Assembly (NCBI RefSeq): GCF_014839805.1
Contig: NC_051115.1
Location: 2,602,600-2,666,599 of the forward strand
Length of the DNA stretch: 64,000 bases
Direction: 5' to 3'
DNA from: Manduca sexta
Lineage: Eukaryota > Arthropoda > Insecta > Lepidoptera > Sphingidae
The notes beneath the pieces were generated by a model. The model searched no databases. It was not told the DNA's origin and saw only the letters and a program-made list of their open reading frames with translations. Shown one piece after another: positions 7,903-60,374 of the stretch. Both the position numbers and the translations under genes were made by a program. The stretch's first letter is position 1; every line of letters begins with the position of its first letter.

Positions 7903-10900
7903 TTATAATTTACTTTGCACCGATAATAGACGAATGGCTTCTTTATAACCGGTCTCAGACGCCCCATGCACTGTAGAGAACTGCGTAAGATTGGTCGCCT
8001 CACCAGCGAACAGTACTCGAGGGTTGCCTGCAGAGTCGACCAGCGGTTCGCCCAGGTCGACTCTGGAGTTAGGGTACTGTACGGTCAGTAGGTTGTCGTA
8101 GGTGTAGCTGCCGCGGGTGTACGGATTTGAATACCAGTTGGATCTGAAATAAATACGAAATAGATAATTTCTTAAGTACTATATAAAAAATAGTGGGCAC
8201 ATAGCTCGTAAAACTGATGGCTGATGGGGCAAGAAGGTTCTGGAGTGGAGGCCACGAACTGGCAAGCGCAGCAGACGTGCACCGACGAGGACAGATGACC
8301 TCATAAAAGTCGGAGGTGGTCGCTGGATGCGGGCTTATAATAGGTCGATCTGAAAATCTTTGGGGGAAGGCAAATACTCAGCAGTGGACATGCTGCGGCT
8401 GATGATGTAACATTTATCAAAGTAACGTTTGTGAATATGAGGGTCAGTGCATAGTGAGTTTAGTATTATGAGACTGACATACCTTATGATGCCAATAGGC
8501 TCGGGTATGTCGATATTCTTTCCCATGAACCTCCTGAGGATTTCCATCACTTTGTTCTTCACCAAGTCTTCAGGCAGTGTCTCCACCTGTGAAATTGTTT
8601 TGATTAATACTCAAACTTTAAAATATGTTGTCGTTATAATAAATTTATAATTCAATATATATTGGATAATACGTCTAAACGTTACAATTAAAAGCTTCTT
8701 TATATAATTTCAGGATAATTTTGGATTTATTATTTTTTTACAAAACAAATGTTGTATGAATAATGTACCAAAAATTTATACTGCTCGTATTATACTTAAG
8801 GCTACCTTAGGAACGTCTAAGTAGTCACCATTGTAGAGAAACAGATAGGTGACATAATTATGCCTGGATATACACAGGCTGATCCCGGATCGCGACGCGT
8901 GGGCCACTATGGCGGGTTTTAACACCTTACGTACAGTTTATTTATTTATTTATTTACTATAATAGGAACATCAAAAGTACATATATTCAACAATCTAATA
9001 CACTTTGCACAGGCTTAATTACTAAGACATGCACCAATTAAAGATGTACACAACATTGCTTGAGAAAATTGCATACTTAGATTAACCGCGAGTAACTGAG
9101 GAATACAATATAATATAATATAAATGTTATAGCATGCCATTAAAAAGAACTTCTACATTTTTTCTATCTGGGCGGATATAAAATATATCCTACCATCAGC
9201 AACATAGGGACAATAGTTTTTTATTTTTATTTCTGTGAATGACGAGACGAATTTGCCGTTCGCCCGATTGTAAGCGATACGACCGCCCATAAACAGTAGA
9301 AATACCATCCAACACGTTGATTACAAAATATTGTGCGGTATTCCACTGCTCTCACCATCCTGAGACATGAGATGTTAAATAATTCCAGTAGTTACACTGG
9401 CTACAATGTCCTTCAAACCAGAACACAACAGTGACTAATCGCTTGACAGAAATAGACATTGCGGTGGTACCTACCCAGGACTCTCACATATGAGAAACCT
9501 ACCACCAGTAGCTTGAAATACTCACCAATATCCCGATATCTCCGGTAGTCCAAAGCGTCAGCGCCTTAAGGTTCCCGAGAGGACAACTCGCGGCATAAAT
9601 CTTCGTCACCCATTCATCTTTTTGGGGCACCTTTTCTCTGGTCTCCTTGTCCCACAGGAACCCGAAGAACGTAGCACCGGACGGCCACCATGCTCGATCG
9701 AATCGTAGGATTATTTTGTCCATCACTCCCATAGATAAATTGGTAATGGCCGACACTTTCTTCTCAGGCAATTTCGGAGAGAACAGGTTGGCGTGCCTAA
9801 AAATAAAACAATGTATTTGACGGGGTAGTTGGGTAATTTTTTACATCTATACATATAAAGCTGAAGAGTTTGTTTGTTTGGACGCTTTAATCTCAGTAAC
9901 TATTGAACCGAATTTGAAATGCTTTTCACTAGTAGGAAGCTACATCACTCCTGAGTGCAATATCAAATCAAATCAAATAGGCTATTTTCATCCCGGAAAA
10001 ACATTTTCACGCGGATGCCGTCGCAGGAAATTTAACAAATGCATTTCCTTAAAATCAAACTTAGAAAGTATTACGAGAGTTTGGTACTCTACGACGATTT
10101 TCTGGTCAAAATCTAAATAAAAAACACAAATCATAATTTTTTCTGATTTGCTAATATCAAATCTAAATTGAAAAAAAAATCCATTTCGCTGTAATTGTCA
10201 TTATGATAGTAAAAAAAAACTTATCCGCAGTATTAAATGCCAAAAAACTTAATACAAATTATTTTTCTAACCTAACCTAACCCAACCCACCTCTCCTTGA
10301 GCACGCCGAGCGAGACCGTCACAATAACACTCCGGGCTCTGTAGACGGAGCCGTCGGAGCAGGACACGACCACGTCCTCCGCCGGCTGTCGCGGCCACGT
10401 GATGCGAGACACCTCCTTGTTCAACAAGATGTCCAGGTTGGGGTAGCCGGGACCGTTATTGTATGTGTTCTGGAAACATTTCAACAGTTTATTCAGGCAC
10501 AGGACAACCCCACTACTCATAGCAAATGGTGTCTAGATAGTTCTTTATTGCTTTGAATGACGAGACGAGCTTGCCGTTCGCCTGATGGTAAGCGATACGA
10601 TCTATAAACAGTAGAAACACCAACACTTTGAATTACAAAGTATTTGGTATTCCACTGCGCTCGTCTGAGACATTAGATGTTAATTATTATGTCCAGTAGT
10701 TACACTGGCTACAATGTTCAAACCAGAACACAAGTGAATACACACTGCTGCTTGGCAATAGACATTGCGGTGGTACCTACCCAGACGGACTCTCGGATAT
10801 GAGAGATCTACCACCAGATATTGTACACGAGAGATGGACATTCCCCAGTCGTCATCATTATGCCGAACTGTGTGAAACAGGATATACACAGACTGATTAT

Positions 10901-13900: not shown

Positions 13901-14969
13901 AGTAGAAAAATTAAGAAACGGTATTTTTGTTTAAAGGACTTTATATTTTGAAATGTTGTCAATTATATTTTTTATATCATCATTAGCCGTAGCATGTCCA
14001 CTGCTGAACATGGGTCTCTCCCAAAGATTTCCAGATCAACCTATAGTAATCCCGCATCCAGCCTTCTATATTTATATACAGGGCATTTTGACATTGCGTT
14101 ACTAAATGGAACCACATACTCGTCTTCACCTTTGCTGACATTGTGCCAAAAATCATACATTAAGGTTATAGCTTAAGGTCCATTTTTCATACATTTAATA
14201 CGACGAAATTTTAAAGGCCGAAATATCCATGCATATTAATTATTTTTACGTTTTTCTTTCAACTTCAAGAACTAATCACTAACTAGACGTGAATTTAAAT
14301 TCTTTACTTGTCAATACTTGTTTAGTTACCCAGATTAAAGGTGAAACAAAATGTATGAAAAATGGACCTTAAGCTATAACCTTAATAACGAATATTTTCA
14401 CCAAAAATCCTGGTTTTAGTATTCGGATTTTTTTATCATTTTGTAGTTTAATGCGAATATGGCGTGTGTGTGAATGTATTTCTGACTGAAACTATGATGT
14501 TGCTGCGACGAATTCTCTTAGAGTAGAAGTAGTGGCGAAAAATACTCTTTATTCATATTTATTTTGTTTGAAACTTACACTTTTTTATTTTACATCTACG
14601 GCTGAAGTAACTTATTCTAGAGTTATTTCCAAGTAGATAAGTATGTGGTTTCATTTAGTAACGCAATATCAAAATGACCCTGTATAGAGACTGATTCAAA
14701 ACTTGACTCACATCGGCCACTATGACGAGTTTTATACTTCGTGTACGCTACCACATTAACAATTTTATACAAATATCACCAGTAAATATTTGTACTCACC
14801 ACTCAGCCCCGAGCTCGACGAGTCCATCTCCGAAGGGCACGGTGTTGACTCGTCCGCCGACCCTGTCCATCGCCTCCAGCGCCAGGACCTTCTTCCCGGC
14901 CTTGGCGAGGGTCGACGCGGCCGTCGCACCAGCTGACCCTAGGCCTACCACGATCGTGTCGTAACTCAT
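7903..14969 (-). CDS. flavin amine (polyamine) oxidase AO1, predicted peroxisomal
   Basis: FAD-dependent amine oxidases of this family oxidise polyamines or acetyl-polyamines, giving an aldehyde, an amine and H2O2. Coding exons are 14969-14800 (exon begins at 14973), 13009-12800, 11456-11240, 10469-10291, 9796-9526, 8586-8483 and 8143-7903; phases join to 463 residues. Visible are the Rossmann motif GLGSAG (9-14), ribose-binding E32, GGR (38-40), AEWMHG, the conserved FAD-proximal Lys (K286, in MDKIILRF) and the C-terminal FAD motif LFAGEATN...TVHGASETGY. It ends in SKL, a canonical PTS1, and has no N-terminal signal, so I infer a peroxisomal acetyl-polyamine oxidase-like enzyme. Substrate is not proven. 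A leader exon ending at 20181 joins in phase and would add Met-Lys-Ala-Ile before Met1. Confidence 0.88.
8215..8412 (+). mobile_element. RTE LINE 3' fragment in AO1 intron
   Basis: The plus strand reads TRTDDLIKVGGGRWMRA then GEGKYSAVD-type residues and ends in GCTGATGATG. It is a decayed copy of the same RTE C-terminus seen at 6975, between AO1 exons 8 and 7. Confidence 0.65.
8865..9205. repeat. interspersed repeat, ACACAGGCTGATCCCGGATC family
   Basis: Related pieces occur near 10870-10935, 14690-14745 and 44838-44950; all contain a variant of GGCCACTATGGCGGGTTTT, and two continue to ATATATCCTACCA. The copy here is split by about 200 bp of AT-rich DNA. Family class unknown. Confidence 0.45.
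9215..9510 (+). repeat. interspersed repeat family Z
   Basis: The consensus starts at TGAATGACGAGACGA, passes GTAAGCGATACGACCGCC and GACATTGCGGTGGTACC and ends at CTACCACCAGTA. At least eight copies occur in this window. It has no ORF; one copy (34074) shows a short target duplication, which suggests a SINE-like element. Confidence 0.7.
9846..10030 (+). mobile_element. decayed Helitron fragment
   Basis: It begins TCTATACATATAAAGCTGAA followed by GAGTTTGTTTGTTTG and an AATCTCAGTAACTA-type motif, the 5' end of the Helitron family seen complete at 17477. It lies in AO1 intron between exons 6 and 5. Confidence 0.6.
10530..10820 (+). repeat. interspersed repeat family Z, second copy in AO1
   Basis: Same start (TGAATGACGAGACGAGCTTG) and end (GATCTACCACCAG) as the copy at 9215, with small deletions. 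Confidence 0.65.
11583..12052 (-). mobile_element. tRNA-derived SINE S2, split by a palindromic insertion
   Basis: Read on the minus strand, the element has a tRNA-like head with B box GGTTCGAATCC and a body containing GCCCGATATGGCGATAGGC. It is split at 11746-11936 by a hairpin element, with the word CAAATATCA present on both sides as the duplicated target. The SINE lies in the AO1 intron between exons 4 and 3. Confidence 0.75.
11746..11936. mobile_element. palindromic MITE-like element nested in SINE S2
   Basis: The left part (ATTGAAATTAAACTAATTTT, then ATCGCGGTTTTT) and the right part (AAAAACCGCGAT, then AAAATTAGTTTAATTTCAAT) are inverted copies. The inner arms GCAGCCTTCATGGTCA and TGACCATGAAGGCTGC meet at a C-run, so the core could fold into one long hairpin. 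It belongs to the CGTTTCGAAGAC family found at five other places here. Confidence 0.7.
12203..12745 (-). mobile_element. tRNA-derived SINE S1 split by a Helitron
   Basis: The 3' part (12203-12400) and 5' part (12692-12745) match one S1 element on the minus strand. The Helitron at 12401-12691 separates them exactly between A and T of the S1 consensus ACACACATGATTTT. Confidence 0.75.
12401..12691 (+). mobile_element. short non-autonomous Helitron
   Basis: It starts TCTGTATATATGAAAG, ends GCGAGCAAAAGCTAG after the GC-rich dyad GCGGGCGAAGTCGCG, and is flanked by A on the left and T on the right without target duplication. These are the defining end features of Helitrons. There is no Rep/helicase ORF; it is 291 bp. 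Confidence 0.78.
13188..13432 (-). mobile_element. tRNA-derived SINE S2, nearly complete
   Basis: On the minus strand the head reads GGCCTAGTTGTACTGCATG and the B box GGTTCGAATCC, followed by the S2 body. This is the cleanest S2 copy in the window and lies upstream of AO1 exon 3. Confidence 0.78.
14079..14682. mobile_element. DNA transposon or MITE with CAGGG inverted ends, TSD TATA
   Basis: The left end CAGGGCATTTTGACATTGCG and the right end are inverted copies over about 45 bp, flanked on both sides by TATA. There is no transposase ORF. A second element (14160-14385) is nested inside. It lies in AO1 intron between exons 3 and 2. Confidence 0.72.
14160..14385. mobile_element. MITE family Y, nested copy
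   Basis: The terminal inverted repeat is TTAAGGTTATAGCTTAAGG, continuing into TCCATTTTTCATACATT. The core ACTAGACGTGAATTTAAATT is shared with the copy at 15637. Confidence 0.72.
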
Positions 14970-14973
14970 GATG
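14800..14973 (-). other. AO1 exon 2 (first certain coding exon)
   Basis: The exon starts after TTTGTTTCAG and ends at GAGTG before GTGAGT. It encodes the FAD-binding N-terminus. The start codon ATG is at 14969-14967, four bases into the exon, so any upstream leader must end in phase 2 to extend the protein. At the DNA level it is nearly identical to AO2 and AO3 exon 2. Confidence 0.85.
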
Positions 14974-15046
14974 CTGAAACAAAAGGTTGCGGTGGTGAAA
15001 TTTCATGAAGCAAATTTTTAGTTCAGTTAACATATATTAATAATAA

Positions 15047-15315
15047 ATCAGCCCTGTTTTATATACTGTTCCACTGTTGGACACGGGCCTCCTCTACTAC
15101 TGAGAGGTTAGGCCTCAGTCCACCACGCTGTAGTGCGAACAGACTTCACACACCCTCAAAATTCCTATAGAGAACTTCTCAGGTTCACCGTTAAAGCAAG
15201 CGATAATTCACAAAGAATACACACAAAACTTTATAAAAATCAGAGGTGGTTGGGTTTTGAACATGCGGACATTCGTCTCGGTAGTCCGTTCCACAACTAA
15301 CTAGGCCATCGCCGC
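15047..15315 (-). mobile_element. tRNA-derived SINE S1
   Basis: The 3' end at left reads ATCAGCCCTG, the head at right reads (minus strand) AGCGGCGATGGCCTAGTTAG with a degenerate B box. It lies just upstream of AO1 exon 2. Confidence 0.75.
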
Positions 15316-15636
15316 TATTACATATTGACGAGAAACAAAAACTAAGCGGATTAGTCTTAATCCTAAATCATGTGCGGAGTGGACCTCATACTTGGAGTTT
15401 CAATGTTCCTGTGCCGGAAGGGTCTATGCATTAATAAAAAAAAACATCATCAAAAGTGAGATCACGTATAGAAGCAAACGTACGGAGCTACATAGACGTG
15501 GGACAACGACCAAGCTCTTAATTAAAATAAAAAAAAAAAGTTCTAAATCAACAATCATTTACACATCTACCAAAGTTATTATGCGTAGGTAATTCAAATA
15601 GCTATATAATCGAAATCGCAAATGTAAAGTCAGCGC

Positions 15637-15850
15637 CTTATGGCGATACCTCAAGGTCCATTTTATATGACGAAATTTTAAAGGCAGAAATATCCATGAT
15701 TATTAATTATTTTTACATTTTTCTTTCAACTGCGAGAACTTATCACTAACTAGACGTGAATTTAAATTCTTTACTTGCCAATACTTGTTTAGTTACCCAG
15801 ATTAAAGCCGAAACAAAATGTATGAAAATGGACCTTGAGGTATCGCCTTA
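15637..15850. mobile_element. MITE family Y, second copy
   Basis: Inverted ends GGCGATACCTCAAGGTCC and their complement flank the same core as the copy at 14160. The outer part of the inverted repeat differs from that copy on both ends in a matching way. Confidence 0.72.
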
Positions 15851-16382
15851 TTCCGTCTACGAAGGTATGCCCGTCTTTTTGCAATCACGGATGTTCTAAT
15901 CGAAGGACAGCTTTAATAGTCGTGTAAGGGACTTTTGACTCTCTTACTTATACCGCTATCGAAGTTGTCCTTTGAATAGAACGCCTGTCCTTACAAAAAG
16001 ACGGATTTACCCTTATAGACGGAATAAGCGCCCTGACCTTATACCTAAGAGCAACGATAATATTAAAATTATAATCACAATTATATTTGTCCCTGTGAAT
16101 GTGTTCACAATAGTAATAACTATAATTCACTCACTACTACAGTTGCAAGCGCAAGCGCATGTTTTCAACCCAACCGTCTGACGGCGGGGGGTGAGCTACG
16201 TATCAAATAGCGGAAACTCGCCCCCCCCCCCCCCCCCTACATCCTAAGCGAACCACATAAGTTCCTACTAGTTTTCTTTTAATTTTAATATTGTGAAACA
16301 CAGAAAAAAATAAAAACCGACTGACGGCTGCCTATGATTGACGACCACTTCTACCGGAGTATGAGACAATGTATATATTAAA
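15851..16382. other. unannotated AT-rich stretch with a C17 run
   Basis: No gene is supported. A run of 17 C occurs at 16221-16237 and is likely length-variable. Confidence 0.5.
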
Positions 16383-16745
16383 CTAGCTTTTGCTCGCGGC
16401 TTCGCTTGCGTGAATGAGTTTTCCGGGATAAAAGTCCCGCTATATATTTTCCCGGGATACCCTATAACCTTCCCAGGGTCCTAAACTAACCCTCTTATTC
16501 ATAGACGTTATTTATCTAAGGACGGAGCATTGTGATAACAAGTCTGTTTCTCAGTGCTGACGGCATGGCAGCCTTCGCAGTGCGTAGACATAGGGCCGTT
16601 ATGATTGGCTAATATTGTTGCATCTCAATATTAGATATAAGTCTATACCAAATTTCATAAAAATCCGCTCAGTACATTTTAAAAAAATCGATAACATACA
16701 GACAGAAATGGTGGCTTTGTTTTATAGTATGTATATATAAATAGA
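16383..16745 (-). mobile_element. non-autonomous Helitron, minus strand
   Basis: On the minus strand it starts TCTATTTATATATACATAC and ends in GCAAAAGCTAG, with flanking A on the left and T on the right of the plus strand. It carries the AAAATCCGCTCAGTACATTT-type internal region. No ORF. Confidence 0.68.
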
Positions 16746-16839
16746 TAACACACTATAATAATGCATATCTATAAGATTATCCTCAAAACATTTTGTAAAC
16801 GTAATTTCCCAAGGAAATAGGTATCTTAATGATTTATTA

Positions 16840-17290
16840 TGTTTACGCGAATGTTAGACTTTGAAGAAAAAAAAAAATCGGATTATATTGCAGTTTTTAT
16901 ATTATGCTAGCGTCCCGCCCCGGCTTCCCACGGGTGCAATGCTGATACTAAATACACTACAGAAAAACTGTGAACGTTGTATATAAAAACATAGCGGCCC
17001 GCTCTGGCTTCGCACGGGTGTAACAAACAAAATAACAGTATTTCTCCACTATTTAATGGATGTTATTATACATATAAACCTTCCTCTTGAATCACTCTAT
17101 CTATTAAAAAAAAACCGCATCAAAATCCGTTGCGTAGTTTTAAAGATTTAAGCACACATAGGGACAGAGAAAGCGACTTTGTTTTATACTATGTAGTGAT
17201 TTTCTACCGACGTTTCGAAGACCGCAGTGTTCGCGGCCACGAAGCAGACTAGGTGTTGGTCATCCGAAAAGTCAAAATTATAATATCGGC
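16840..17290. repeat. CGTTTCGAAGAC family copy holding a Helitron
   Basis: The outer parts (AATCGGATTATATTGCAG at left, ACCGACGTTTCGAAGACC and ATCCGAAAAGTCAAAATTAT at right) are one repeat copy. The Helitron at 16907-17199 lies between them. Confidence 0.55.
16907..17199 (-). mobile_element. Helitron of the TCACTACATAG family
   Basis: On the minus strand it starts TCACTACATAGTATAAAAC and ends in CTAG. Copies of the same family lie at 57443-57746 and 58717-58933. No ORF. Confidence 0.65.
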
Positions 17291-17299
17291 CTACGTTTT

Positions 17300-17476
17300 T
17301 ATTTATTTTACACTTTGTACATGTGGTATACAGGCCATGAACGAACTTAATGCCATGGCCATTCTCCCCCAGTCAACCTTGGGTTTGTATGAGGACGGAG
17401 GCAGGTGTATAAGAATGAAAAGTGAAAAACACATAAAAAGAGTAATAATAAACAAATGTAGTAACATACTTGCATA
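17300..17476. other. no gene seen
   Basis: AT-rich sequence before the tandem Helitrons. Its open frame is short and shows no recognised protein. Confidence 0.5.
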
Positions 17477-19120: not shown

Positions 19121-19654
19121 TATATAAATATATAGATATATCAAAAAAAATACATATATATTTACAATTACCCAAAAAATTCCTGTTGGTGGTTTGATGC
19201 AGAATGAGCTCACAGTGTCTTAAAGTCTGTCCGTTTTTTGGGTTCCGATTTCATTAAATGTAGAACAGTATCCCAAGCTTGAGCAAGCTTTTAAATAATT
19301 ATCTTATTTGTCAAACAGACCAACAGTTTGTGCACTTTTCTACGTAAATTACTTGGAATATTATCAATTTAAACAATCAACAAACGTTGTTCATTAAATT
19401 TTACTTTATCATAGTCATCTTAAAAGGACTTTCCTGTACCTACACCAAAAAGAAAAACACCATCCTCGCCTAGAATATTCTAACACAAACACAGCACGAA
19501 GGGAATCCTTTGATTCTGATTGGTCGAAACACCAATGATTAAGTTATGTGTCAATTGTTCGATCAACCATGGACATGGGTAATTTTTCCCACTACAAAAT
19601 GGTGGGGGAGTGCGCAGCTAGTCGTATAGGAAATATTTTATTAAATGATCATTA
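19121..19654. other. no gene seen
   Basis: AT-rich sequence with no supported coding or repeat structure. Confidence 0.5.
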
Positions 19655-20639: not shown

Positions 20640-20776
20640 TTATGTCCAGAAGTTACACTGGATACAATATCTTTCAAACCGGAACAACAGTGACTACACA
20701 CGGCTTGACAGAAATAGACATTGCAGTGGTACCTATCCAGGCGGACTCTCACATATGAGAGATCTACCACCAGTAA
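20640..20776 (+). repeat. interspersed repeat family Z, 3' part
   Basis: It matches the family from TATGTCCAGAAGTTACACTGG to GAGAGATCTACCACCAGTA. Confidence 0.6.
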
Positions 20777-48361: not shown

Positions 48362-51300
48362 TTAAATCTTGTTAGAAATATTTAGGAGCCTCATTGCTTC
48401 TCTATATCCGGTCTCTGAGGCGCCATGGACTGTTGCGTAGTGTTGAGGGTTCGTCGCCTCGCCTGCGAACAGTACGCGTGGGTTGCCAGCGGAGTCCAGT
48501 AAGGGTTTACCCAGATCCTCTCGTGCGTTGGGGTACTGTGGGGTGAGGATGTTATCGTATGTGTAACTACCCCGCGTGTAGGGGTTCTTGTGCCAACTTG
48601 ATCTGGAAAATAGAAAAATAATTTAACTGTATTAAGAAGGCGAGATACGGGGTAGCCAGAGACACTAGCCCAGTATTAAAAGGCCCTATGTTAATTTTTA
48701 TTTATAACCTTATTAACCTTGCTTGCGGCTTCGCCGCGACTTTTCCGGGATAAAACTCCCGTTATCTATTTTCCCGGGATAGAAAAGTAGCCTATAACCT
48801 TTCCAGGGTCTTAAACTATCTTCATACTAAATTTCATAAAAATACGTTCAGTAGATTTTAAGAAAATCGATATCATACAGACAGACAGCTTTTGAAGACT
48901 TTGTTTTATAATAAGTATAGATGTACCAGCATGAACATTTTTGTGTAGAATAAAACATACAAATAAATGTACCTCAACATGGCAGTAGGCTCTGGTATGT
49001 CGGTGTGCCTTCCCATGAACCTCCTCAGGATTTCCATTGACTTGGCTTTCACCACGTCTTCAGGCAACGTCTCTACCTGGTAACGTCGCATACATTAGCT
49101 TGGATGAACAAGGGTTTCATGATTTCTTATGTTTACACGAATGTAAGACATTAGCAACTAGATTTCGGATTTTATCAGGGTTCCTTGTTGTTATTTTACT
49201 GACGTTTCGCAGACTTTGCAGCCTTCATGGTGACGAGGCGGAGGTGTCGTTCCTCCGAAAAGTCACTGTTATGAATGTAGATTTTGTAAAATGAACTTTA
49301 GAGATTACCAACTCTTCGTGACAATAGAAGCCTTCACAACGTTGGGAGTATTATAATCTACTATAAACCACGATAAAAACCTAAAGTATTTTTATTTTAA
49401 AAAGTATTACACATTCGTCCTTTATAACCGAAGGGGTGGGCAGCCAACTAGTGCATCTAATTTGGCCATAACTGTTCCATCCAAAAGAGGAGGCTGACGC
49501 CATATCGGCGATCAGACTCTGTGCCGATATTTAGGAGAACCATCCTGGGAATCGAACCCTAGATTCCAGCATGGCAGTCGTATGCAAACACCACTGACGC
49601 AAACAAAGTATAATACTATGTAAAAATAGTAGATGATTTTCAGTACATTATATTCGAAAATGTCAACACCAAATTAGATGCAGATTATAGAAAATACAGA
49701 TTTACCAGTCTGGCAATCGAACCTTAGACCTTATCAGCGTTATTTGTAATACTCTATGGTAATTATTAAAGTTAAATATTAAAACTTATTTATTTATTAA
49801 CTTCAGGTAACAAAGGACCCATAACAAAACTTACATCAATATAATATTTATTTATTTTTTTTAGATTTAGACAATACAATATTAATACTTTTTTTTTATT
49901 TACTGATAACATGCAAACCATAATAAAAGTAATAAATAAATCTCTCGCGATCAGAGTGGGATTCGACCTTTCAAAACTGACCTGTCGGTAGCGTCGGTAA
50001 ACTCGCTCTGATGCTCGAGATATACAAACAAATAAATATGCAATGATTTAAGGATTTGTATACAGATAATAATTGCATGCAACAAATATACGTATTTCTT
50101 ATACATGCAGACGAATAGCAAATCTGCCAAAGTCACCATTTTGGTTGTAAAAAATAATTAAAAAAAAAAAGAATTTGAAGAATCAGCTCGAGAATTGTCT
50201 GTTTAGATTTATTTAGAAACGGTTCCATCCCGTTCTCACTGCGCGATGATTGTATCTAGTTTTTCCACTCGTACTTTATAATAAAATATTGTACGTTATT
50301 TCGGGTAAGTGTACTCTATATTTTATGAGAACAATAAATTACGCGAAAATACTTTATTTGCCATGATTTGACTCCTCTTGGATTGCTCGTAAGAATTTTT
50401 GCTTAAAACACCAGTAAGTAATGATACAAAAATGACAGTAAGTATTTGATAAGCCTAATATTGTATTTTTTAAACTGTACGCATTAATTGTATTTTTATA
50501 GTCGATTTCTTTCACGGCAGTATTTACATAGATTTTAAATTTTATGATGTAGAATACCAAATGGCTAAACGAAACAAATAATTCGTGTTTGCATCTGATA
50601 ATTTGATTTGTTAAAAGTTGAAAATAATAAATTAGAATACATTTTTGTGTTGTGGCGTATGACGCAACACAGCATTATGCTGAGCTGGCCACCGAATTGT
50701 CACATCGAAGGCGTGTAACGTTCCATTAATTTGTTTAATGATTAATGATTAAGCATGTTTTATGTTTAATCTTATACACTTTTTATGTATTGCATGATTC
50801 AGTTGTGACAATAAAAACTTTTTTTCTTTCTTTCTTTCTATTTGTCGTTTGCGCAAAAAAGGTGGCAAACCTAATTGTACCCCGTTATGCACTTTGATAT
50901 TATGTATATCGCCAAGGCTAATCGAGTTATTTTCATGCATATTGGAAAGATTTAGAAAAGAAGTCAATGAGAGCGGTCATTCGATAAATCTTCTAAATTA
51001 TTTCCACTCTAAAATCCTAGTCGGAAAATAACAACGTAGTCAGATAAGAGATTGGAAAAAATACTGACTTAGTAAATGAAGTCATTCAATTCGGCTAATT
51101 TGTATGTTTTCCTTTCCATTCTAGCATTTGTAAGCAAATAGCGAACGTTTTGGAACGAATTTTAAACACGCTACAAGACAGATGCAAACATGATGAACAT
51201 CTCAAACATTTTTGATGACTAGATAGTTAAACTAAAATATTATTGTTTATCCCATGACAAATTTTGTCCCAGTATTCTTAGAAAATTAATCCGCAATAAA

Positions 51301-54300
51301 AAATACCGCTCCAAATTTACCCCATACATTCTGTACACCAAAATTATTTGAGACATATATATATAATAAAATCAGACCTGTATTATATACTTGCCCACTG
51401 CTGAGCACGGACCTCCTCTACTACTGAGATGTGATGTGTGTATTCTTTGTGAATTTATCGTTCGCTTTAACGGTGAAGGAAAACAACGTGAGGAAACCTG
51501 CACACCTGAGAAGTTCTCTATAGAAATTTCGAAGGTGTGTGAAGTCTACCAATCCGCACTACAGCGTGGTGGACTAAGGCCTAATCCCTCTCAGTAGTAG
51601 AGACATATATATCAAACAAAATTATGTGGTGATCAAATTTACCTCGATTAATTGTTGCCCAAATTTTTTTTACTCTCGGCCAAATTATTCACATTCACTA
51701 ACCAGTTTCACCCATGCATTTGGACATTTGTCGCGGCGTAGGCACACAGTAAAGTGTGTATGCCATGGTTGCCGATTCACATTGAGGCCTATAAGGGCTC
51801 GCGAACATTAATAATGATAATAATAATAACAGCCCTGTATTATACACTTGCCCACTGTTGAGCATGGGCCTCCTCTACTTCTGAGAGGGATTAGGCCTTA
51901 GTCCAGTCTTAGTAGACTTCACACACCCTCGAAATTCCTATAGAGAATTTGTCAGGTATGCAGGTTTCCTCACGATGTTTTCCTTCCCCGTTAAAGCAAG
52001 CGATAATTCACCAAGAATACACACATTTTTTTTAGAAAAATCATACGTGTGTGCCCTTGGGATTTGAACCTGCGGACATTCGTCTCGGCAGTCCGTTCCA
52101 CAACCAACTAGGCTATCGCCGCTTTTTTTCGCGAACATTCCTTGGCCCTTCTCCGTCCTCCCATGCTAAGAATTTTCCGTATCCTTCCCCACACTTCCTT
52201 CCCAGCTATCTTCTCCTGACTTTCCTCCAGGCCCCTGCAGTCGCTAAGACGGGGGATTCCAGTACCCCATTAACAGATTTCCCCAGGCGTTGACTGCGGG
52301 GCCCGATACCGCAAAAAACATTTCACCCAATAATTAAAATCATTCAACCTATTTCACCTCAGAAGATTGATCCGTTTGAAATGTGGTGACGGAGGCGAAT
52401 ATTGAGAATACCGTGGACCGTCAAACGCATAAACGAGTCGATCCTCTCACAGCTTAAAGTGGAGACACGTAGCCACCATATTTCGCCAACGCATCCTTGC
52501 ATACCTCGAACAGATATGCAGTTCTTTTCCAGTGTTTTTAAAAAATAAAATTCGGGAATAAATTTTAAAAGACAGCCGTCTAGCGTGAATGATAGGAGAA
52601 GACTAACGGGGAGCAAAGGGAGCCTGTATATATTATGTATGGGAAGGACGAAACGATAGGAAAGAGCGAGGTAGGCAGGATAGTGTGAACAGAACATGTT
52701 AAACGGAAAGGCGACGAAAATCTGGAGAGACTTGACATCGTTGGCAATATCGAAGGCAAACGTTTTCGAGGCAACCGATGGACAGACCAGATTAAAGACT
52801 CGTCTACCACCAATTACCACAAATTAGTTGGACATGCGATGAACAGAAACTGGTGGAGATAAATAATCCGCTCTAAATGCGATACATCCAATGCTGACTA
52901 CGATCCTTAGTCATGAAGGACCGACTACAGAGAGAGATGTTACCTCATGCCTAATTATCCATATTTTAAATGCTAAATACCAGTACTGACCAATTTAGCC
53001 GCGTCGCCGCACAACCAAAGGGTTAACGTATTACTGGTCCCCAAACCAAAACTGGGGCCATATATCATTGAGGTCCAAATGTCTTCTTTCGGGATACTCT
53101 TCCTGTCCTCAGCTTTCCACATAAAAGTGCTGGATGTCATATTCTTTGGCCACCAGCCTTTTTCAAAAGACAATATTATTTTACCGATCACACCTATGGA
53201 CATTTTCTCTATAGCCGTAGTTTTTTCGCTCGGTAATGCAGCGGAAAATAACGTGTTGTGCCTGGAAATATAATTGTCTGGTCTTTTATCTGACTAAATT
53301 CAGGGTTTTAGTCAGTTCTGTGACTAAAAATAGCTTATTAAATCGTTTTCATAGAGTTACATGATTATTTATAATCGATTACTATCTAAATTGTAATCAA
53401 AACTAGATGTAGACATACTTCGCTATGTTATATTTGATGTGCAAATTGAATTATATTATATAAGACATTATTCTGTCATTTTCAGTAAAAATTATTAGTC
53501 ATCCAGAAAGATAAATAAAGGAGGAACCATGCACTACTCTGTTTTTTAATTAATAGCATGATTTTTTAAAATTTTTGCAAATTAAATAAAAATTTACATT
53601 ACACTTTGTAAAAGTAAGCTAGCAACTTGGTAGTGTATTAAACGCCTAATGTGGGCAATATGTTTCTATTGTTAAAAATATTGTGACCTGTTGAATATAT
53701 ATTTTTTTATTGCTTTGAATGACGAGACGAGCTTGCCGTTCGCCTGATGGTAAGCGATACGATCCATAAACAGTAGAAACACCAACACCTTGAATTACAA
53801 AGTATTGTTTGGTATTCCACTGCGCTCGCCATACTGAGACATGAGATGTTAAGTCTTATTATGTCCAGTTACACTGGCTACAATGTCCTTCACACCGGAA
53901 CACAAGTGACTACACAGCTGCTTAACTACCCAGGCGAACACTGATATGAGGTGACCTACCTCCAGTGCTCCATATATATCTCTCGCTTCGAAATTAAGAA
54001 AGAAACTAATTGTAAAAAAATATATCAACGGTTGAAGGCTAATTGACTTAAACGACATTTTTTTGTGACACAAGTTAAAATCAGCACTTTTTTCAATGTC
54101 TTTTTTTTCCTAGTTAAAAATTTAAAAAAAATGTCCCTTAGGTCTATTATATATTTTTTTGTGTTTATGCAACTTAGGAATTAGAAAAAAAAATCTTTGC
54201 CTTGAAAAAAATATTCAAATCTCCTTTATATAATATTGCCTAATATAGACTGCCTCGGTGTAGTTGTACTGCATGCGCGGTACGGCAGCGCTCCGAGGTC

Positions 54301-57300
54301 CTGAGTTAGAATCCCATACTGAGTTGGGCAAAGTGTTTTTGCCCGCCCGGGCATTTGAGTTTTTGCCTGGAGTCTGGAATTTGTGCCCGATATGGCGATA
54401 GGCTCGCTCTCCATCATGGGACGGAACACACATGTCGAAAAGAAGGTACCCTGGTCTGCCCTTTGCATACCCCTTCGGGGATAAATGCGGGATGATGTAT
54501 TGCGTGTTGTGTTCATTAAATACTACAAAAAAATAATCTGTATTTATATCAAATAAATATTATACTACTTATTGCAAAAAAAAAAATATTTTTCTAACCT
54601 AACCTAACCCAACTCACCTGTCCTTGAGCACGCCGAGCGAGACCGTCACGATAACACTCCGGGCTCTGTAGACGGAGCCGTCGGAGCAGGACACGACCGC
54701 GTCCTCCGCCGGCTGTCGCGGCCACGTGATGCGAGACACCTCCTTGTTCAGCGCGATCTCCAGGTTGGGGTAGCCGGGACCGTTATTGTAAGTGTTCTAA
54801 AAGAAGGGTAAAGATAAGTTAATTAAGCTCTAATACATTTTTATTGACTAAGTGAGTCGACCAAGCTTGATTTATTGTAATTTCTCTTAAATAATAATAT
54901 CAGCCCTGTATCTATCACACTGCAGCACAGGCCTCCTCTCTGACGTGAGGCGCACATGTCATTGTAAATCAGCAACCATAATATTGCGAATGGTCGTGTA
55001 ATTGTGCATTTTTTGGAATATTAATGTTTGATTTCACGTTCCATTGTTAATTTGAATTGGTTATTTCTTTCAATTTAATTCTTAATTCATCGATTTGGCG
55101 CCGACTCAAAATTATTTAGGGATTCATTAGATTAATTTAAGAAGTTAGTTATTAAAGTTAATAGAAGTATTTTATTTTATGCTTTTCGGTTTTTTCTTCG
55201 GTTTAATTTTATTGTTAAAAAGCTATTTCCTGTTTTTCTACCTTTAGAGTTAGTATTTTTATATTTTTTTATGGGACCAACTTCGGAGTATACAGTACCC
55301 AAAAAAAAAAAATCAAATTTGGTCTACTTTGTAAAAAGTTATGCGTGGCCTTACATAAAAAAATACGTGTCGAATTGAGAAGATCCTCAATTTTTTTCAT
55401 CGATTAAAAAGTTTTTTTTAACAATCGAAATTCAAGGCCCCCTGTAACAAAAAGCCAGCTTTAACGATTAAGGAAAACATCGCAAGGAATCCTTCATACC
55501 TACGAACATATCACCCTTGGTACTCTTTATAATATTATGAATGCAAAAGTTTGTAATAATATTTGGATGATTGTTAGAAATAAAAACAGTAACCGCTGAA
55601 CGAATTTAGATGGAATTTGGCACTAAGGTAGACCATGTCTTAGAATATATAACTCATTTTTGTACCAGTAATTTACGCCCTTAGAACTTTTAAAATTTTT
55701 AATCAGTTTTTCGAAGCCGTCATAAAGACTGAGTTAGTGATTTAGGATTATCTGCAGCAAAAAGGGTTCTCAAGCAGAAGAAGTTGCGAGCAAAACATAG
55801 TATTTTATAATTAATCAATAACACAGAGTTTAGTATGAGAAACTTACCAACAATAGCTCAAAGAACGTCTTGTACCCATATCTGTGCCAACTGACGGCCT
55901 GATGGCCCTTCAGGTCCTTGAAATGAGAGGACGTTGTGAGCTCATTCCAACTATTAGACGACTCATGACTTCCTGCGTCCAAATCCATCATAAATAGAAA
56001 CGATTCTATGAAATCAGTATCGTTTGCTATTTGTGGGTACTTCTCGTTTATGTATTCGTTCACTCTGGAAGAAAACAAGTAGGTTAATTGTAAAACCGAT
56101 TGTAAATATATGATTTTTTTTATTATATTTGAATGAGAGGAGCATGTAGTTCATCAACATCATCATCAGCCACATAAAGTCCACTGCTGAACATAGGTCT
56201 GGCCTAAAGATTTCCAGACGGACCTGTCGAAAGCGGCCTCCAACAGCGTGTTCCTACTGCCTTTATCAAGTCGTCTGTTGCAGGTGGACTTCTAATACTG
56301 CGCTTGTCGGAACGTAGTCTCCACTCGAGAACTGTTTTGCTCCATCGGCCGTCAGTTCTGCGAACTATGTCCTACCTATTGTCTCTTTAGCTTGCTAATC
56401 CGCTGGGTTATATCGGTGACTTTCTTTGATGATAATACGATTACTCATAACAGTAGCACCTTACAGAACTATGAATTACCTACTGCGAGGTACTCTATAT
56501 TCCTCACTGAGACATTAAAGTCTCGTAATGCCCTGTAGTTCCGGCTACAATGTACGATACGGCTAGGTAAAAATAAACATTGCTTCCAAGCCTGAGGTTA
56601 ATAAAAACATTTATCGGTATTGTCGCTTTAATATTTAACACCTGAATCGATATTGCTAATCGATTTTCTTGATATTAAGAATTGCTTAAATAGCTGTCAA
56701 AAACATCACCAGTTCCTAGTTTAATGATTAAGAGGCAAGATGGCGGGTTTGACCAACAGCTGATCGAGTAAATTTGTGTTTTAACTAAGCATAGCTTTGC
56801 GAAACTATTATGAGTAAAACTGATAATCTTCCGTAATAGTGTGTCATAAAATGTTATCTTTAATAATCAATTAATAAGATTTCCAGCAATTGACATTTGT
56901 TATTGATATATATAACTATCAATCAATCTCACCTCCTAGTAATATACTGGCCCAAAGGTTCCGGCACTGGTGGCGGGTCTTCTATCACTTCATTGGCGAA
57001 GTCCATCAGCTCCCTTATCAACGGGGTGTCTGCTGGAGAGCCATCCGACATAAAGATTTGGAAGTCCCACATGTCGTCGTTAACGATATCTATATTGTTG
57101 GCTATCGCTATCTCGTACACGCGGCTGTTTGCAGTGCCGTGAATCCTGGTGAAGTGAAACAAAATTTATTAAATTTACGCGATTCTACGCAAGCTATTAA
57201 AACTGGATTACCACATACAATGGCCGTCAAACATCTTGATCACACTAGGACGTGGTGTGGGATTTTGTGTACGTATGTGTAGCTACATTTATGTGTAATC

Positions 57301-60300
57301 GACGTTTGAAATGGAATCATATCTAAGCGACAAATATACCGAAAATGAATTATATAAAAATTTAGAGTTGCCAAATTTGTATCCGTCATTTGACCTAGGT
57401 TTTGTATTTCTAGGACAATTTTAAAATCATTAGACTATATCTTCACTACATAGTATAAAACAAAGTCGCTTTCTCTGTCCCTGTGTCCCTTTGTATGCTT
57501 AAATCTTTAAAACTACGCAACGGATTTTGATGCGGTTTTTTTTAATAGATAGAGTGATTCAAGAGAAAGGTTTATATGTATAATAATAACATCCATTAAA
57601 TAGTGGAGAAATACTGTTATTTTGTTATGTTATACCCGTGCGAAGCCAGAGCGGGCCGCTATGTTTTTATATACAACGTTTACAGTTTTTCTGTAGTGTA
57701 TTTAGTATCACCATTGCACCCGTGCGAAGCCGGGGCGGGTCGCTAGTATCTTTATGGAATAAAAAATTTAATAGTTATGAATTTTCATTAATATCATAAC
57801 TTTAAATCACTCTACTCAAAAATTTACTGATTGTCGCTTAGATATTATTGCCTTTCAAGCGTATGAAATTCCCCGACCCCGCGGAATCTACTCTCTCTCT
57901 CTATCTACTCACCACTCAGCTCCGACCTCGACGAGTCCATCTCCGAAGGGCACGGTGTTGACTCGTCCGCCGACCCTGTCCATCGCCTCCAGCGCCAGGA
58001 CCTTCTTCCCGGCCTTGGCGAGGGTCGACGCGGCCGTCGTACCAGCTGACCCTAGGCCTACGACGATCGTGTCGTAGACCATGGCGCTGTGGAGCATAGA
58101 AAAAATAAAAAACCTGACTGACGAAAATTTTACTAGGAGCCACAAAAAATAATAATAAAAAAGCAGCGATAGCCTGGGTGTGGAACGGACTGCCAAGACG
58201 AATGTCCGCAGGTTTAAATCCCAAGGGCTCACACCTCTAACTTTTCTAAAAAATCATGTGTGTGTTCTTTGTGAATTTATCGTCGCTTTAACGGTGAAGG
58301 AAAACATCGTGAGGAAACCTGCACATCTGAGACGTTGTCTATAGGAATTTCGAAGGTGCGTGAAGTCTACCAATCCTTACTAGGCCAGCGTGGTGGATTA
58401 AGGCCTAAACCCTCTCAGTAGTAGAAGAGGCCCGTGCTCAGCAGTGGCCAAGTATATAATACAGGACTGATATTATTTAATTAAATCATTTGATAAGTTA
58501 TTATTTATCAACTTTAGGAAAAATTCATGCAATAGTTTGAGAGCATAAAAAGGTAAAAAGGCCAATTTCTGATCAAGGATCACTTCTAAATATTCAAGGT
58601 CCAAGGAATTATTTGACCAGACATACTAATTGATGCTGTTATTTTTCTTTTTATATCTAATGACGTTGTGACATCTTGTCATACGGACATTTCAAATAAG
58701 AACGACTTATTATCAACTAGCGGCCCGCTCTGGCTTCGCATGGGTATAACATAACAAAATAACAATATTTCTCCACTATTTAATGGATGTTATTATACAT
58801 ATAAACCTTCCTCTTGAATCACTCTATCTATTAAAAAAAACCGCATCAAAATCCGTTGCGTAGTTTTAAAGACTTAAGCATACAAAGGGATATAGGGACA
58901 GAGAAAGCGACTTTGTTTTATACTATGTAGTGATGGTTAATAACTTTTGGAGCAAAAATTAGGTCTCAATATCCGATAACTAACTAACTATATTCTTTAA
59001 TGTCTGATTGTAGTATCTGTTAAATCCGTTTAATTGGATTTTCCCCCCGTTTAAACGGTGATGTGCGTGCATAAGCTTTTATAATTAATCTTTTTATACA
59101 AAAGACTTGGAACAAAAATTAAAAAGATTCAATGGACAATTGAATATGACAAAAACCCGGAGTTTCTTTCTGTATTTCTTCTTCGGGTAGTCATCGCTTA
59201 GGTAGCTAGTGGAAGGCTGGTAGGTTAGCTAGGTTAGGACCTTTATCGGACTCACCGGTGAGGATCGCGACGCGTTCCTACCTTTATGTTTATTAAGATT
59301 ATGTACATCTTTTTTATTTATTTTTTCCTGCCAGCCCGAGCTGGCTACTTTGTTTACTTTGTAGTTTTTCAACTTCTTTATGTCTGTATATAAGCGACTT
59401 AATTTGAGTTACAATTAAATATTCTCATGTACACATACAAGGTGTTGCTTTGCATCCCCGCCATGTTTAAAGAGTATTGTAATGTAAGTCCTACCTCAAA
59501 CTGAAATCCCAATATTTGATTAAAATATTTTACGATGATTTTGAATTAACCCCCATGTATATGTCAGAATAAGCCGCACAACAACGCGAATAGCCCACAC
59601 ACATGGACGGCACTCTCTGCTTAATAATAATAATAATAATATCAGCCCTGTATTCTCTGCTTGCAGTCGATAAATCAAAGCAATTTGTGTTTGTGTCAGC
59701 TGTGTACCATTACACGTGTGGTTTAATATAATCTTAATTATTTTATAAAGAGTAATTTTCGGTACTTATTTTTTCATTGATTCGTGTTCTATAAGTAGAG
59801 TGTACCAACTTCCGTAAATATGGCGGGGATGCAAATCCACAACTTTTATGTAAAGCAATAAAAAAAATCTTGATTTATCGTAAGTACAACTATGTTCGCC
59901 TACGTGATTTATAAAGCATTTTATTATTTATTTTATTTATTGCAGCATATTTTAATAACCTCATAAAATGTTTCGCTCTAGATTTTTTTTTACATTTTTA
60001 TTTATATACATATATTATAACACCATAACAATTGAAACTAATGCGATGTTATACAGATTTAATTTTAACAATTTATTTCAATACACTTATGAGCCATTTC
60101 ACTGAATTCCGACAGGTTACATATAAATATATCCAAGTTCTGAGATATAGTATTAAGCAGTCGTATGGCCCGTGACAAGGGCGCAAACCTTAGAATATTT
60201 GTTCGCGGTGGTTGATGTTAGATGCCACTGGCGTACTACGTTAATGTTATTTTATTTGTCAGGCGACCCCATCAGTGAATTAAATTAAAGTTAAACTACA

Positions 60301-60374
60301 TAACAATAATAAAAAGAAGTTACTTACCGGCTCCCGGCAACACAGAGAACTAGTAACACTGACCACGGCGTCAT
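48362..60374 (-). CDS. flavin amine (polyamine) oxidase AO3, predicted secretory
   Basis: Exons: 60374-60328, 58086-57913, 57145-56933, 56064-55848, 54796-54618, 53261-52991, 49076-48973, 48602-48362; all phases join to 481 residues. The N-terminus MTPWSVLLVLCVAGSRA is a signal peptide with likely cleavage after A17, before Met18. An in-frame upstream ATG (60392) would add MFGTIK but lies too close to the TATA box to be in most transcripts. GLGSAG, the GGR motif, GAEWIHG, K304 (IGKIILSF) and AGEATN...TVHGASETGY are intact. One extra codon relative to AO2 lies in exon 3. The C-terminus is SNKI, not PTS1. It is closest to AO2; exon 8 differs by only a few residues. Substrate unknown. Confidence 0.88.
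48712..48925 (-). mobile_element. Helitron-like insertion in AO3 intron 7
   Basis: Paralogous to 33608-33826 and inserted at the same place in the intron. Confidence 0.62.
49155..49293 (+). repeat. CGTTTCGAAGAC family copy shared with AO2
   Basis: Contains ACTGACGTTTCGCAGACTTT, TTCATGGTGACGAGG and TCCGAAAAGTCACTG; no family Z insertion precedes it, unlike AO2. Confidence 0.65.
49425..49615 (-). mobile_element. diverged SINE S2 shared with AO2
   Basis: TATAACCGAAGGGGTGGGC at left and the B-box relative GGGAATCGAACCCTAGATTC at right. Confidence 0.6.
49616..51365. other. AO3 intron 6 DNA without recognised features
   Basis: AT-rich; no gene. A short CTTTCTTTCTTTCT tract at 50822-50838 follows ACAATAAAAACTTTTTT and may be the tail of an old retroelement. 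Confidence 0.5.
51367..51604. mobile_element. fold-back SINE S1 insertion
   Basis: The 3' end is in minus orientation (ATCAGACCTGTATTATATAC to TCTACTACTGAGA), followed by a longer S1 piece in plus orientation that ends CTCTCAGTAGTAGAG. GAGACATATATAT flanks both sides. This inverted arrangement with one target duplication resembles twin-primed insertion. Confidence 0.7.
51605..52350 (+). repeat. interspersed repeat family G, split by SINE S1
   Basis: GTATGCCATGGTTGCCGATTC and TATAAGGGCTCGCGAACATT at left, CGCGAACATTCCTTGGCCC and GTTGACTGCGGGGCCCG at right match the copy at 35370-35705. Confidence 0.68.
51821..52128 (-). mobile_element. tRNA-derived SINE S1 with clear target duplication
   Basis: On the minus strand the head (GCGGCGATAGCCTAGTTGG, B box GGTTCAAATCC) is at right and the AATAATAATAAT-type tail at left. 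TCGCGAACATT flanks both sides. Confidence 0.82.
52355..52935 (+). mobile_element. decayed LINE ORF2 C-terminal fragment in AO3 intron 6
   Basis: With several stops and shifts the plus strand reads FEMWWRRRILRIPWTVKRIN, ESILSQLKVETR and later GKRFRGNRWTDQIKD. This is the known C-terminal region of RTE-like LINE ORF2. Confidence 0.72.
53705..53968 (+). repeat. interspersed repeat family Z
   Basis: From TGCTTTGAATGACGAGACGA to TGACCTACCTCCAG, with small deletions, in AO3 intron 5. Confidence 0.65.
54248..54495 (+). mobile_element. tRNA-derived SINE S2
   Basis: Head GCCTCGGTGTAGTTGTACTG, a mutated B box (GAGTTAGAATCCC) and the body ending ACCCCTTCGGGGATAAATG. Confidence 0.72.
54896..54962 (-). 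mobile_element. SINE S1 3' fragment
   Basis: ATAATATCAGCCCTGTATCT and GGCCTCCTCTCTGACG only. Confidence 0.5.
54963..55829. other. AO3 intron 4 DNA, no gene seen
   Basis: AT-rich; a short S1-like word (AACGATTAAGGAAAACATCG) occurs at about 55463. Confidence 0.45.
56150..56402 (-). mobile_element. RTE LINE 3' fragment in AO3 intron 3
   Basis: CATCATCATCAGCCACATAA, AGTCCACTGCTGAACATAGG and TTTCCAGACGGACCTGTCG. Flanks (GAATGAGAGGAGCATG at left, CTTGCTAATCCGCTGGG at right) also match 38110-38390, so it is shared with AO2. Confidence 0.7.
57443..57746 (+). mobile_element. Helitron of the TCACTACATAG family in AO3 intron 2
   Basis: Begins TCACTACATAGTATAAAAC and ends GCGGGTCGCTAG. No ORF. AO2 intron 2 lacks it. 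Confidence 0.68.
58163..58478 (+). mobile_element. tRNA-derived SINE S1
   Basis: Head AGCGATAGCCTGGGTGTGGA, B-box GGTTTAAATCC, end ACAGGACTGATATTAT. It is in AO3 intron 1. Confidence 0.75.
58640..59010. repeat. family X arm fragment split by a Helitron
   Basis: TCTAATGACGTTGTGACATC and GACATTTCAAATAAGAACGAC at left, TAACTTTTGGAGCAAAAATT at right match the outer arms at 25024 and 30305. The Helitron at 58717-58933 separates them. Confidence 0.62.
58717..58933 (-). mobile_element. Helitron of the TCACTACATAG family
   Basis: On the minus strand it starts TCACTACATAGTATAAAAC and ends CGGGCCGCTAG; flanks A and T; inserted in a family X fragment. Confidence 0.7.
59011..60320. other. AO3 intron 1 DNA, no gene seen
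   Basis: AT-rich without supported features beyond a short ATAATAATAATATCAGCCCTG S1 tail at about 59625-59650. Confidence 0.5.

Follow-up and report, generated by a model that had tools for sequence, protein, structure and literature searches.

The 64,000-nucleotide stretch of Manduca sexta DNA analysed here (NC_051115.1, positions 2,602,600 to 2,666,599 of the forward strand; hereafter the window) contains three intact flavin adenine dinucleotide (FAD) amine oxidase genes, AO1, AO2 and AO3, all on the minus strand. Two further copies, AO4 and AO5, lie to the right of the window on the same contig, on the plus strand, AO5 being 15-40 kb past the window end; their positions are given as coordinates continued past that end. 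We propose, with a probability of roughly 0.6, that these copies divided among themselves the dual address of a common ancestor, so that AO1 is predicted to be peroxisomal and AO2 and AO3 are predicted to be secreted. Both destinations, i.e., peroxisomal import and secretion of the gene products, are ones that we infer from the encoded protein ends. The models of AO1-AO3 have GT/AG splice sites, matching phases and an open frame from exon 2 to the stop:

14973-14800, 13009-12800, 11456-11240, 10469-10291, 9796-9526, 8586-8483, 8143-7903, minus strand: AO1, exons E2-E8 (splice sites, open frame)
42313-42261, 41420-41247, 39810-39601, 37728-37512, 37205-37027, 36390-36120, 33979-33876, 33515-33275, minus strand: AO2, 8 exons, 482 amino acids (splice sites, open frame)
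60374-60328, 58086-57913, 57145-56933, 56064-55848, 54796-54618, 53261-52991, 49076-48973, 48602-48362, minus strand: AO3, 8 exons, 481 amino acids (splice sites, open frame)

The coding exons of AO1 match the M. sexta database protein P0001 at 98%, and AO2 matches P0007 at 98% over the columns of the tree described below. The last exon of AO1 (8143-7903, minus strand) reads RLLSVQSKL directly before the stop, and this SKL fits the published consensus of the peroxisomal targeting signal type 1 (PTS1), (S/A/C)-(K/R/H)-(L/A) (PMC3781343, which also gives PTS2 as absent in Drosophila). AO2 ends in NNSKKI (33275) and AO3 in NISNKI (48362), both of which fall outside the consensus.

7914-7906, minus strand: AO1 C-terminal SKL, the canonical PTS1, with the stop at 7905-7903 (sequence)
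33278-33286, minus strand: AO2 C-terminal KKI, with the serine at -3 replaced by lysine (gene model)
48365-48373, minus strand: AO3 C-terminal NKI, with the serine at -3 replaced by asparagine (gene model)

At the other end of the protein, AO2 and AO3 open with an exon 1 that is predicted to encode a hydrophobic signal peptide: the best 8-residue hydropathy is 3.36 for AO2 and 3.54 for AO3, and neither peptide has a charged residue. The AO2 N-terminus also begins the database protein P0007, P0003 and P0014 begin with the N-terminus of the neighbouring AO5, and none of the matches listed carries AO3's own N-terminus. An ATG opens exon 2 in both genes, and AO1 has one as well.

42313-42261, minus strand: AO2 signal-peptide-like exon 1 with a phase-2 donor, MNMIPWSVLLFLCVAGS (sequence)
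60374-60328, minus strand: AO3 signal-peptide-like exon 1 with a phase-2 donor, MTPWSVLLVLCVAGS (sequence)
41414-41416, minus strand: AO2 internal ATG, exon 2 start, GCCATGG (sequence)
58080-58082, minus strand: AO3 internal ATG, exon 2 start, GCCATGG (sequence)
14967-14969, minus strand: AO1 exon 2 ATG (ATC ATG AGT), where a form without signal is predicted to start (position shared with the Met of relatives)

The exon 2 acceptor of AO1 (TTTCAG/C ATC ATG) has the same position and phase (2) as in AO2 and AO3, and thus some upstream AO1 exon is needed. The 18.3 kb upstream of AO1 (14974-33274, minus strand), scanned at three settings of which two were looser, gave no candidate for a first exon that is hydrophobic, ends in phase 2 and has a fair donor. 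As controls, the first scan recovered exon 1 of both AO2 and AO3, and on the plus strand over these 18.3 kb the three settings produced 1, 1 and 2 chance matches. An overlooked ordinary signal exon on AO1 is disfavoured by this result. The annotated AO1 protein P0001 opens with a leader that is not hydrophobic (MYLVFPRKGYKVMKA), for which one doubtful exon can be named:

20224-20181, minus strand: doubtful leader exon matching the annotated AO1 N-terminus, reading MYLGFPRKGYKVMKA here (match to P0001)

This leader region sits inside a dispersed repeat (window 20152-20232), and residues 1-15 of P0001 have a predicted local distance difference test score (pLDDT) below 50 in the predicted structure. 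The sequence-only reading of this window had described an AO1 without signal peptide that codes a canonical PTS1, SKL, just before its stop, and AO2 and AO3 proteins ending in SKKI and SNKI behind a hydrophobic N-terminal exon. The gene models bear out the C-termini and the hydrophobic exons, and the scans above, which cover exons with a fair donor, agree with an AO1 that has no signal exon; AO4, AO5 and the internal ATG were not part of that reading.

The direction of change is indicated by AO5. The proteins P0003, P0005, P0014 and P0049 match the DNA adjoining the window at 100% over most exons, and in this DNA AO5 has, at 79293-79339, the same signal exon as exon 1 of AO2 and AO3, an in-frame ATG that opens exon 2 and the C-terminus NISSKI, of which the first two positions of SKI fit the PTS1 consensus and the Ile falls outside it. 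Its predicted M. sexta isoforms comprise P0003 (signal-plus, with exon 6 cassette 6c), P0014 (signal-plus, 6b) and P0005 (signal-less, 6a). In the tree, the Manduca copies form one group (support 97), within which AO2, AO3, AO4 (P0049) and AO5 (P0003, P0005 and P0014) form a recent subgroup (support 99), with AO1 and P0001 standing apart. Both addresses are present in AO5 and in many genes outside Manduca, and a history in which AO1 lost E1 while AO2 and AO3 lost the tag serine therefore takes fewer steps than one of gains; AO1 is better read as a gene that lost its signal exon, since AO5 and other Lepidoptera have it. The idea, put forward from the sequence alone, that AO2 and AO3 gained a secretory signal after duplication is rejected, as AO5 has the same signal exon and signal forms occur in many other Lepidoptera. 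In contrast, the PTS1 loss proposed for AO2 and AO3 probably does have the right direction, as AO5, from the same recent group, ends in SSKI, and their -3 Ser is Lys or Asn. Of the proposed relocalisation by duplication, the difference between copies at both ends stands, whereas a one-way move gives way to a partition as the likelier course.

Relatives were collected in three protein searches, which together listed 140 distinct proteins, being the best 120 of 857, 518 and 380 matches, and which are lepidopteran wherever the species is given. The isoforms among them are database predictions, and rows count isoforms rather than genes, except where identical tips were pruned. Eight genes (among the best 120 of 857 matches) show predicted forms with an identical core, with and without a signal peptide, namely those of M. 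sexta, S. frugiperda, Bombyx, Galleria, Anticarsia, Ostrinia, Epargyreus and Danaus, and 7/8 of these pairs have a PTS1-like end. Both forms are listed on a contig of equal size in six of the eight pairs, the exceptions being Bombyx (P0023) and Danaus (P0093, no contig). Five proteins from the source 'lgn' (P0004, P0023, P0033, P0051 and P0068) all begin at the exon 2 Met; their contigs of 1,690-2,025 bases are too short for these introns and therefore presumably derive from transcripts, and a truncated 5' end could give the same appearance.

Starts and ends are associated across these rows. We defined a relaxed PTS1-like end as [SAC][KRH][LMIV] and a strict one as [SAC][KRH][LM], to be set beside the published (S/A/C)-(K/R/H)-(L/A), and a nearby internal Met as a Met no more than 10 residues before the YDTI (mature) start. 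A signal peptide is borne by 68 of the 140 rows, 44 of which have a nearby internal Met and 24 of which do not; hereafter the latter are called signal-obligate. The relaxed end is present in 40/44 of the former and in 1/24 of the latter (P0116, SKM), the four exceptions among the Met-bearing rows being KKI (P0007, the AO2 protein) and three GKL; 49/72 signal-less rows also have the relaxed end. The motif is read at the exact C-terminus of 90/140 relatives, as compared with 0.4% expected from composition, and at positions 1-12 residues further in it is found in 0-11/140. An RLL anchor upstream of the end is present in 113 of the 133 rows examined, and where it is kept the relaxed end occurs in 82/94 start-capable rows versus 1/19 signal-obligate rows, so that the loss is not one of the whole tail.

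To take kinship into account, a tree of 143 rows was built from exons 3, 4, 7 and 8 by a quick search (unrooted, Lepidoptera only), and the trait tests used 112 of its 143 tips after identical tips were pruned and seven rows with odd or missing N-termini (P0049, P0131, P0103, P0136, P0137, P0120 and P0117) were dropped. In a Pagel-type test with the relaxed motif, the dependent model beats the independent one with a likelihood ratio (LR) of 24.8 (p 5.5e-5; LR 23.9, p 8e-5 in the first fit), and with the RLL anchor kept (93 tips) the LR is 28.0 (p 1.2e-5). Only one signal-obligate tip has a relaxed PTS1-like end, and single rates are hence not to be read closely.

The copies also differ in exon 6, which carries a lysine that is K in all 143 of 143 aligned rows, aligns with the ...DKI of spermine oxidase (SMOX) and is what we take to be the active-site lysine near the flavin N5.

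9526-9796, minus strand: AO1 exon 6, D-type (GVMDKI), closest to AO5 cassette 6c (cassette comparison)
36120-36390, minus strand: AO2 exon 6, G-type (GVIGKI), closest to AO5 cassette 6a (cassette comparison)
52991-53261, minus strand: AO3 exon 6, G-type (GVIGKI), closest to AO5 cassette 6a (cassette comparison)
96739-97009, 98285-98549 and 100167-100437, plus strand: AO5 exon 6 array, cassettes 6a, 6b and 6c (DNA between E5 and E7)

The AO5 cassettes 6a, 6b and 6c are 271, 265 and 271 nucleotides long, and all seven cassettes of the cluster have a length of 1 modulo 3, such that including zero or two of them would break the frame. The AO5 isoforms P0005, P0014 and P0003 hold exactly one cassette each. 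An alternative exon 6 within AO1-AO3 is ruled out, as each has a single E6. In DNA comparisons, cassette 6c is the only exon of the AO5 array matched by the AO1 cassette (67.6% over 145 nt), and the single cassettes of AO2, AO3 and AO4 match 6a at 88-89%, with a weaker and incomplete match to 6b. The latter three genes retain intron pieces from both flanks of the array, whereas 6b and 6c are absent from them; an AO3 intron piece at about 52119-51820, which is a dispersed repeat found elsewhere, was not counted as evidence. Sixteen isoform groups that look like one gene each, chosen for tree columns that agree wholly or almost wholly (with more than one species in the case of Bombyx), all contain at least one pair that differs in exon 6 (12-83% identity) at 97-100% identity in exons 3-5, 7 and 8; low E2 identities of signal-less rows in these groups reflect the alignment placement of the first residues. 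In the Danaus group, P0093, P0094 and P0097 have one exon 6 in common. Signal peptides are carried by 23/71 D-type rows and 45/69 rows of other types (Fisher p 2e-4, kinship ignored).

We can thus outline how the partition may have come about. In the ancestral type of gene, the first exon E1 would add a secretory signal peptide, and a second start, either another first exon or the ATG opening exon 2, would give a form without signal. Both forms would have one common PTS1-like C-terminus, which would be relevant only to the cytosolic form, the one able to meet PEX5. Once duplicated, AO1 would have given up E1 and either retained SKL or sharpened SKI to it, whereas AO2 and AO3 would have kept E1 and lost the -3 serine. 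The duplicates would also have fixed one cassette each, D-type in AO1 and G-type in AO2 and AO3, with AO5 keeping three, and gene conversion would hold exons 2 and 5 alike. A broader version, which we offer tentatively and at somewhat less than even odds, is that of a combinatorial lepidopteran gene in which the start sets the compartment and the exon 6 cassette sets the active site, the C-terminal PTS1 lying idle in the secreted form. The Manduca duplicates would then have hard-wired two of its combinations, peroxisomal with D-type in AO1 and secreted with G-type in AO2 and AO3, conversion keeping exons 2 and 5 common.

Several points weigh against this account. The isoforms are database predictions, the row counts include several isoforms of some genes, and the published consensus fits just 19/44 of the Met-bearing rows as well as 1/24 of the signal-obligate ones (P0107, SKA). 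Signal-capable genes can end in GKL and signal-less ones in SHL, ends that, like SKI and SKV, may or may not be imported in insects. With the strict motif [SAC][KRH][LM] the Pagel-type test is not significant (p 0.14), and neither is a comparison of 12 independent pairs on well-supported branches, of which 3-5 go as expected, 0 go the opposite way and 7-9 are equal. The end branches of signal-obligate rows are longer (median 0.12 vs 0.02, a gap that identical isoforms widen), and general decay may contribute to their loss of the tag. The required upstream exon of AO1 was not located, and a weak or distant signal exon could still lie there; scans without a donor threshold are noisy (16 rows in the 22 kb before AO5), and a poor-donor signal exon before AO1 may therefore have been missed. 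As for the cassettes, P0002, P0010 and P0012, from other species, hold three, two and two cassette-like stretches and may be prediction errors or real counterexamples to exclusivity; these three were left out of the E6 tree for length (3/143). That 6b and 6c were lost, not gained, is suggested by this E6 tree, in which the deep forks are weak. Finally, the D-type of AO5 is not tied to the signal-less form, as P0003 is signal-plus with 6c and P0005 signal-less with 6a.

Among the alternatives, an ancestor that was purely peroxisomal, with AO2 and AO3 gaining the signal peptide and losing the PTS1 after duplication, would fit the difference between copies at both ends and the description of the vertebrate acetyl-polyamine oxidase as peroxisomal (PMC3517346). 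However, we consider it very unlikely: AO5 combines the same signal exon with an SKI end, many other lepidopteran genes have signal forms whose end is PTS1-like, exon 2 of AO1 retains the phase-2 acceptor to which the signal exon joins, and predicted proteins already suggest signal exons at the same junction outside Sphingidae. It is also distinctly unlikely that the C-terminal tripeptide is no address at all, all copies being secreted or all cytosolic, with [SA]K[LIVM] kept for folding or by chance and the signal exon of AO1 simply unseen. The missing upstream exon of AO1, the existence of GKL, SHL and SKV ends, the strict-motif p value and the 19 of 44 rows that fit the published consensus are what such a view would lead one to expect, but the relaxed motif clusters precisely at the C-terminal tripeptide, it is gone in 18/19 signal-obligate rows that still have RLL, and the 18.3-kb scan upstream of AO1 gave no signal exon.

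A further possibility is compatible with a divided dual address, as it concerns the origin of the two forms: one mRNA with a short leader could give both, the first ATG being skipped in favour of the GCCATGG of exon 2, in which case AO2 and AO3 would still make a cytosolic form. A TATA-like box lies within a conserved block just 33 nt before the signal ATG of AO2 (window 42346, minus strand) and 40 nt before that of AO3 (window 60414, minus strand), which would predict that the leader is very short and that scanning may be leaky, and the context of the internal ATG is strong. On the other hand, the database gives the signal-less forms as predicted isoforms of their own, and we regard this origin as unlikely. 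We assign a similarly low standing to neutral decay of the ends without a change of role, for which AO4 would be the example of ends lost at random and which would also suit the longer end branches of the signal-obligate rows. AO4 lacks both known starts, as no homologue of the signal exon was found in it and its internal Met is replaced by Val; it (P0049) has one exon 6 and ends in KKI.

65330-71722 (continued coordinates), plus strand: AO4 (adjoining DNA)

A loose scan upstream of AO4 gave three rows, one of which (window 62677-62729, plus strand) is hydrophobic and has GTAAGA as its donor; AO4 may be dying, with its start lost, or may have an unrelated first exon. Against decay as the general explanation, the frames and the conserved lysine of AO1-AO3 are intact, and the losses in AO1 and in AO2/AO3 are complementary.

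By domain, FAD motif and lysine, the genes are FAD amine oxidases and putative polyamine/spermine oxidases (PAOX/SMOX-like), which would act on polyamines or acetylpolyamines. PF01593 is above its cut-off in 7/9 exon pieces scanned (E2, E5, E6 and E8), two E4 pieces being below it; E6 and E8 of AO1 both match. The glycines of the GxGxxG FAD motif are invariant across an alignment of 58 proteins. The closest solved proteins by sequence (query P0003) are 7oxl and 5lae, and those by fold (model of the AO1 protein P0001, mean pLDDT 93) are 7oy0 and 5mbx, so that both routes lead to spermine oxidase and N1-acetylpolyamine oxidase; the best fold alignments to the vertebrate enzymes have 28-29% identity. 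The database names of these proteins span from lysine-specific histone demethylase to spermine oxidase.

All copies are near-identical in exons 2 and 5, despite the divergence of AO1 elsewhere to synonymous saturation.

14769-14976, minus strand: homogenised tract over AO1 exon 2, 95% to AO2 41423-41216 (AO1-AO2 synonymous divergence, dS, 0.07)
10257-10475, minus strand: homogenised tract over AO1 exon 5, 97% to AO2 37211-36993 (AO1-AO2 dS 0.04)

Over the three genes, the exon 2 tracts are 14769-14976, 41216-41423 and 57906-58112 and the exon 5 tracts are 10257-10475, 36993-37211 and 54583-54798. The other exons common to AO1 and AO2 have 53-80% identity and dS of 0.6 to 3.7 (the high values being saturated), and differences between the two genes number 14/353 in E2 and E5 vs 382/1043 in the rest (Fisher 7e-40). 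Likewise, AO1-AO5 dS is 0.07 and 0.07 in E2 and E5 vs 0.6 to 3.0 elsewhere. A dS this low means that purifying selection on the protein alone is insufficient, and the exons were most likely homogenised by exon-sized gene conversion: the AO1-AO2 likeness extends past each exon by 3-6 bases on the upstream side and by about 31-34 on the downstream side, and third-position guanine-cytosine content is 0.79-0.87 in exons 2 and 5 vs 0.46-0.66 in the others, as biased conversion would leave it.

The intron after exon 5 starts with GGGTTAGGTTAGGTTAG-like sequence in AO1-AO3 (10290-10257, 37026-36993 and 54617-54583), the first bases of which are also found in AO4 and AO5. We take this start to resemble the insect telomere repeat TTAGG, and it may promote the conversion. 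A long GAGAGC/GAGCGA simple repeat lies right behind AO2 exon 2 (window about 40870-41215). Elsewhere in the window, open frames at 1223-6397 on the plus strand, one of 1165 amino acids, presumably belong to an element like a non-long-terminal-repeat retrotransposon, with a zinc-knuckle protein and an endonuclease/reverse transcriptase/RNase H-like frame, the latter being that of 1165 amino acids.

Should the divided dual address be confirmed, the cluster would be a worked example of duplication resolving a conflict of addresses and of alternative exons, with the two-address gene AO5 still standing beside its specialised copies. It would become testable whether selection keeps PTS1 only as long as there is a cytosolic start, whether moth oxidases that are secreted release H2O2 in the gut, the saliva or the haemolymph, and whether substrate choice depends on the cassette; location predictors would also be misled by a PTS1 lying idle on isoforms with a signal. 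In the literature, insect polyamine oxidases are presented as a clade whose function needs study (PMC3517346), silkworm polyamine genes are described (PMC8306941), and spermine oxidase is among the host-plant-regulated genes of Spodoptera frugiperda and P. c-album (PMC6219076, PMC12696725). Routes of peroxisomal dual targeting include alternative splicing and alternative start codons, with no secretory case in the available part of that source (PMC3798809), and sharing between the endoplasmic reticulum and peroxisomes is described as well (PMC9549241). Among the open-access matches listed, nothing was found on isoforms or targeting of these moth genes, and the partition of a dual address is a pattern not described in the parts of the literature cited here.

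While related to several known systems, the moth cluster differs from each of them. The vertebrate enzymes SMOX and PAOX, of which PAOX is the peroxisomal one, have the FAD amine oxidase fold and the exon 6 lysine in common with the moth genes; neither is known to have a secretory form or a tandem array of exon 6. Mutually exclusive exon arrays exist in insect Dscam and Mhc. The AO5 exon 6 array is like them in that its exons are homologous, lie in tandem and have equal phase, the frame admitting just one of them; it is unlike them in that a cassette encodes the part of a metabolic enzyme that bears the lysine, and in that more than one cassette is joined in each of three database proteins. 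The mammalian enzyme alanine:glyoxylate aminotransferase (AGT), in which an N-terminal signal is included or left out by choice of start, is not a homologue, but like the moth genes it has an optional N-terminal signal, a C-terminal PTS1 that stays the same and one address that was lost repeatedly. Its distribution between mitochondria and peroxisomes varies among mammals (PMC3798809). In contrast to AGT, the N-terminal address of the moth genes is predicted to be secretory rather than mitochondrial, and the losses are spread over tandem duplicates. Finally, duplicates with differing predicted subcellular addresses are treated in the literature on sublocalisation and relocalisation (PMC2790464, PMC3879971), from which the moth cluster is set apart by complementary loss at opposite ends, by a two-address copy that adjoins the specialised ones and by an alternative exon that was partitioned too.

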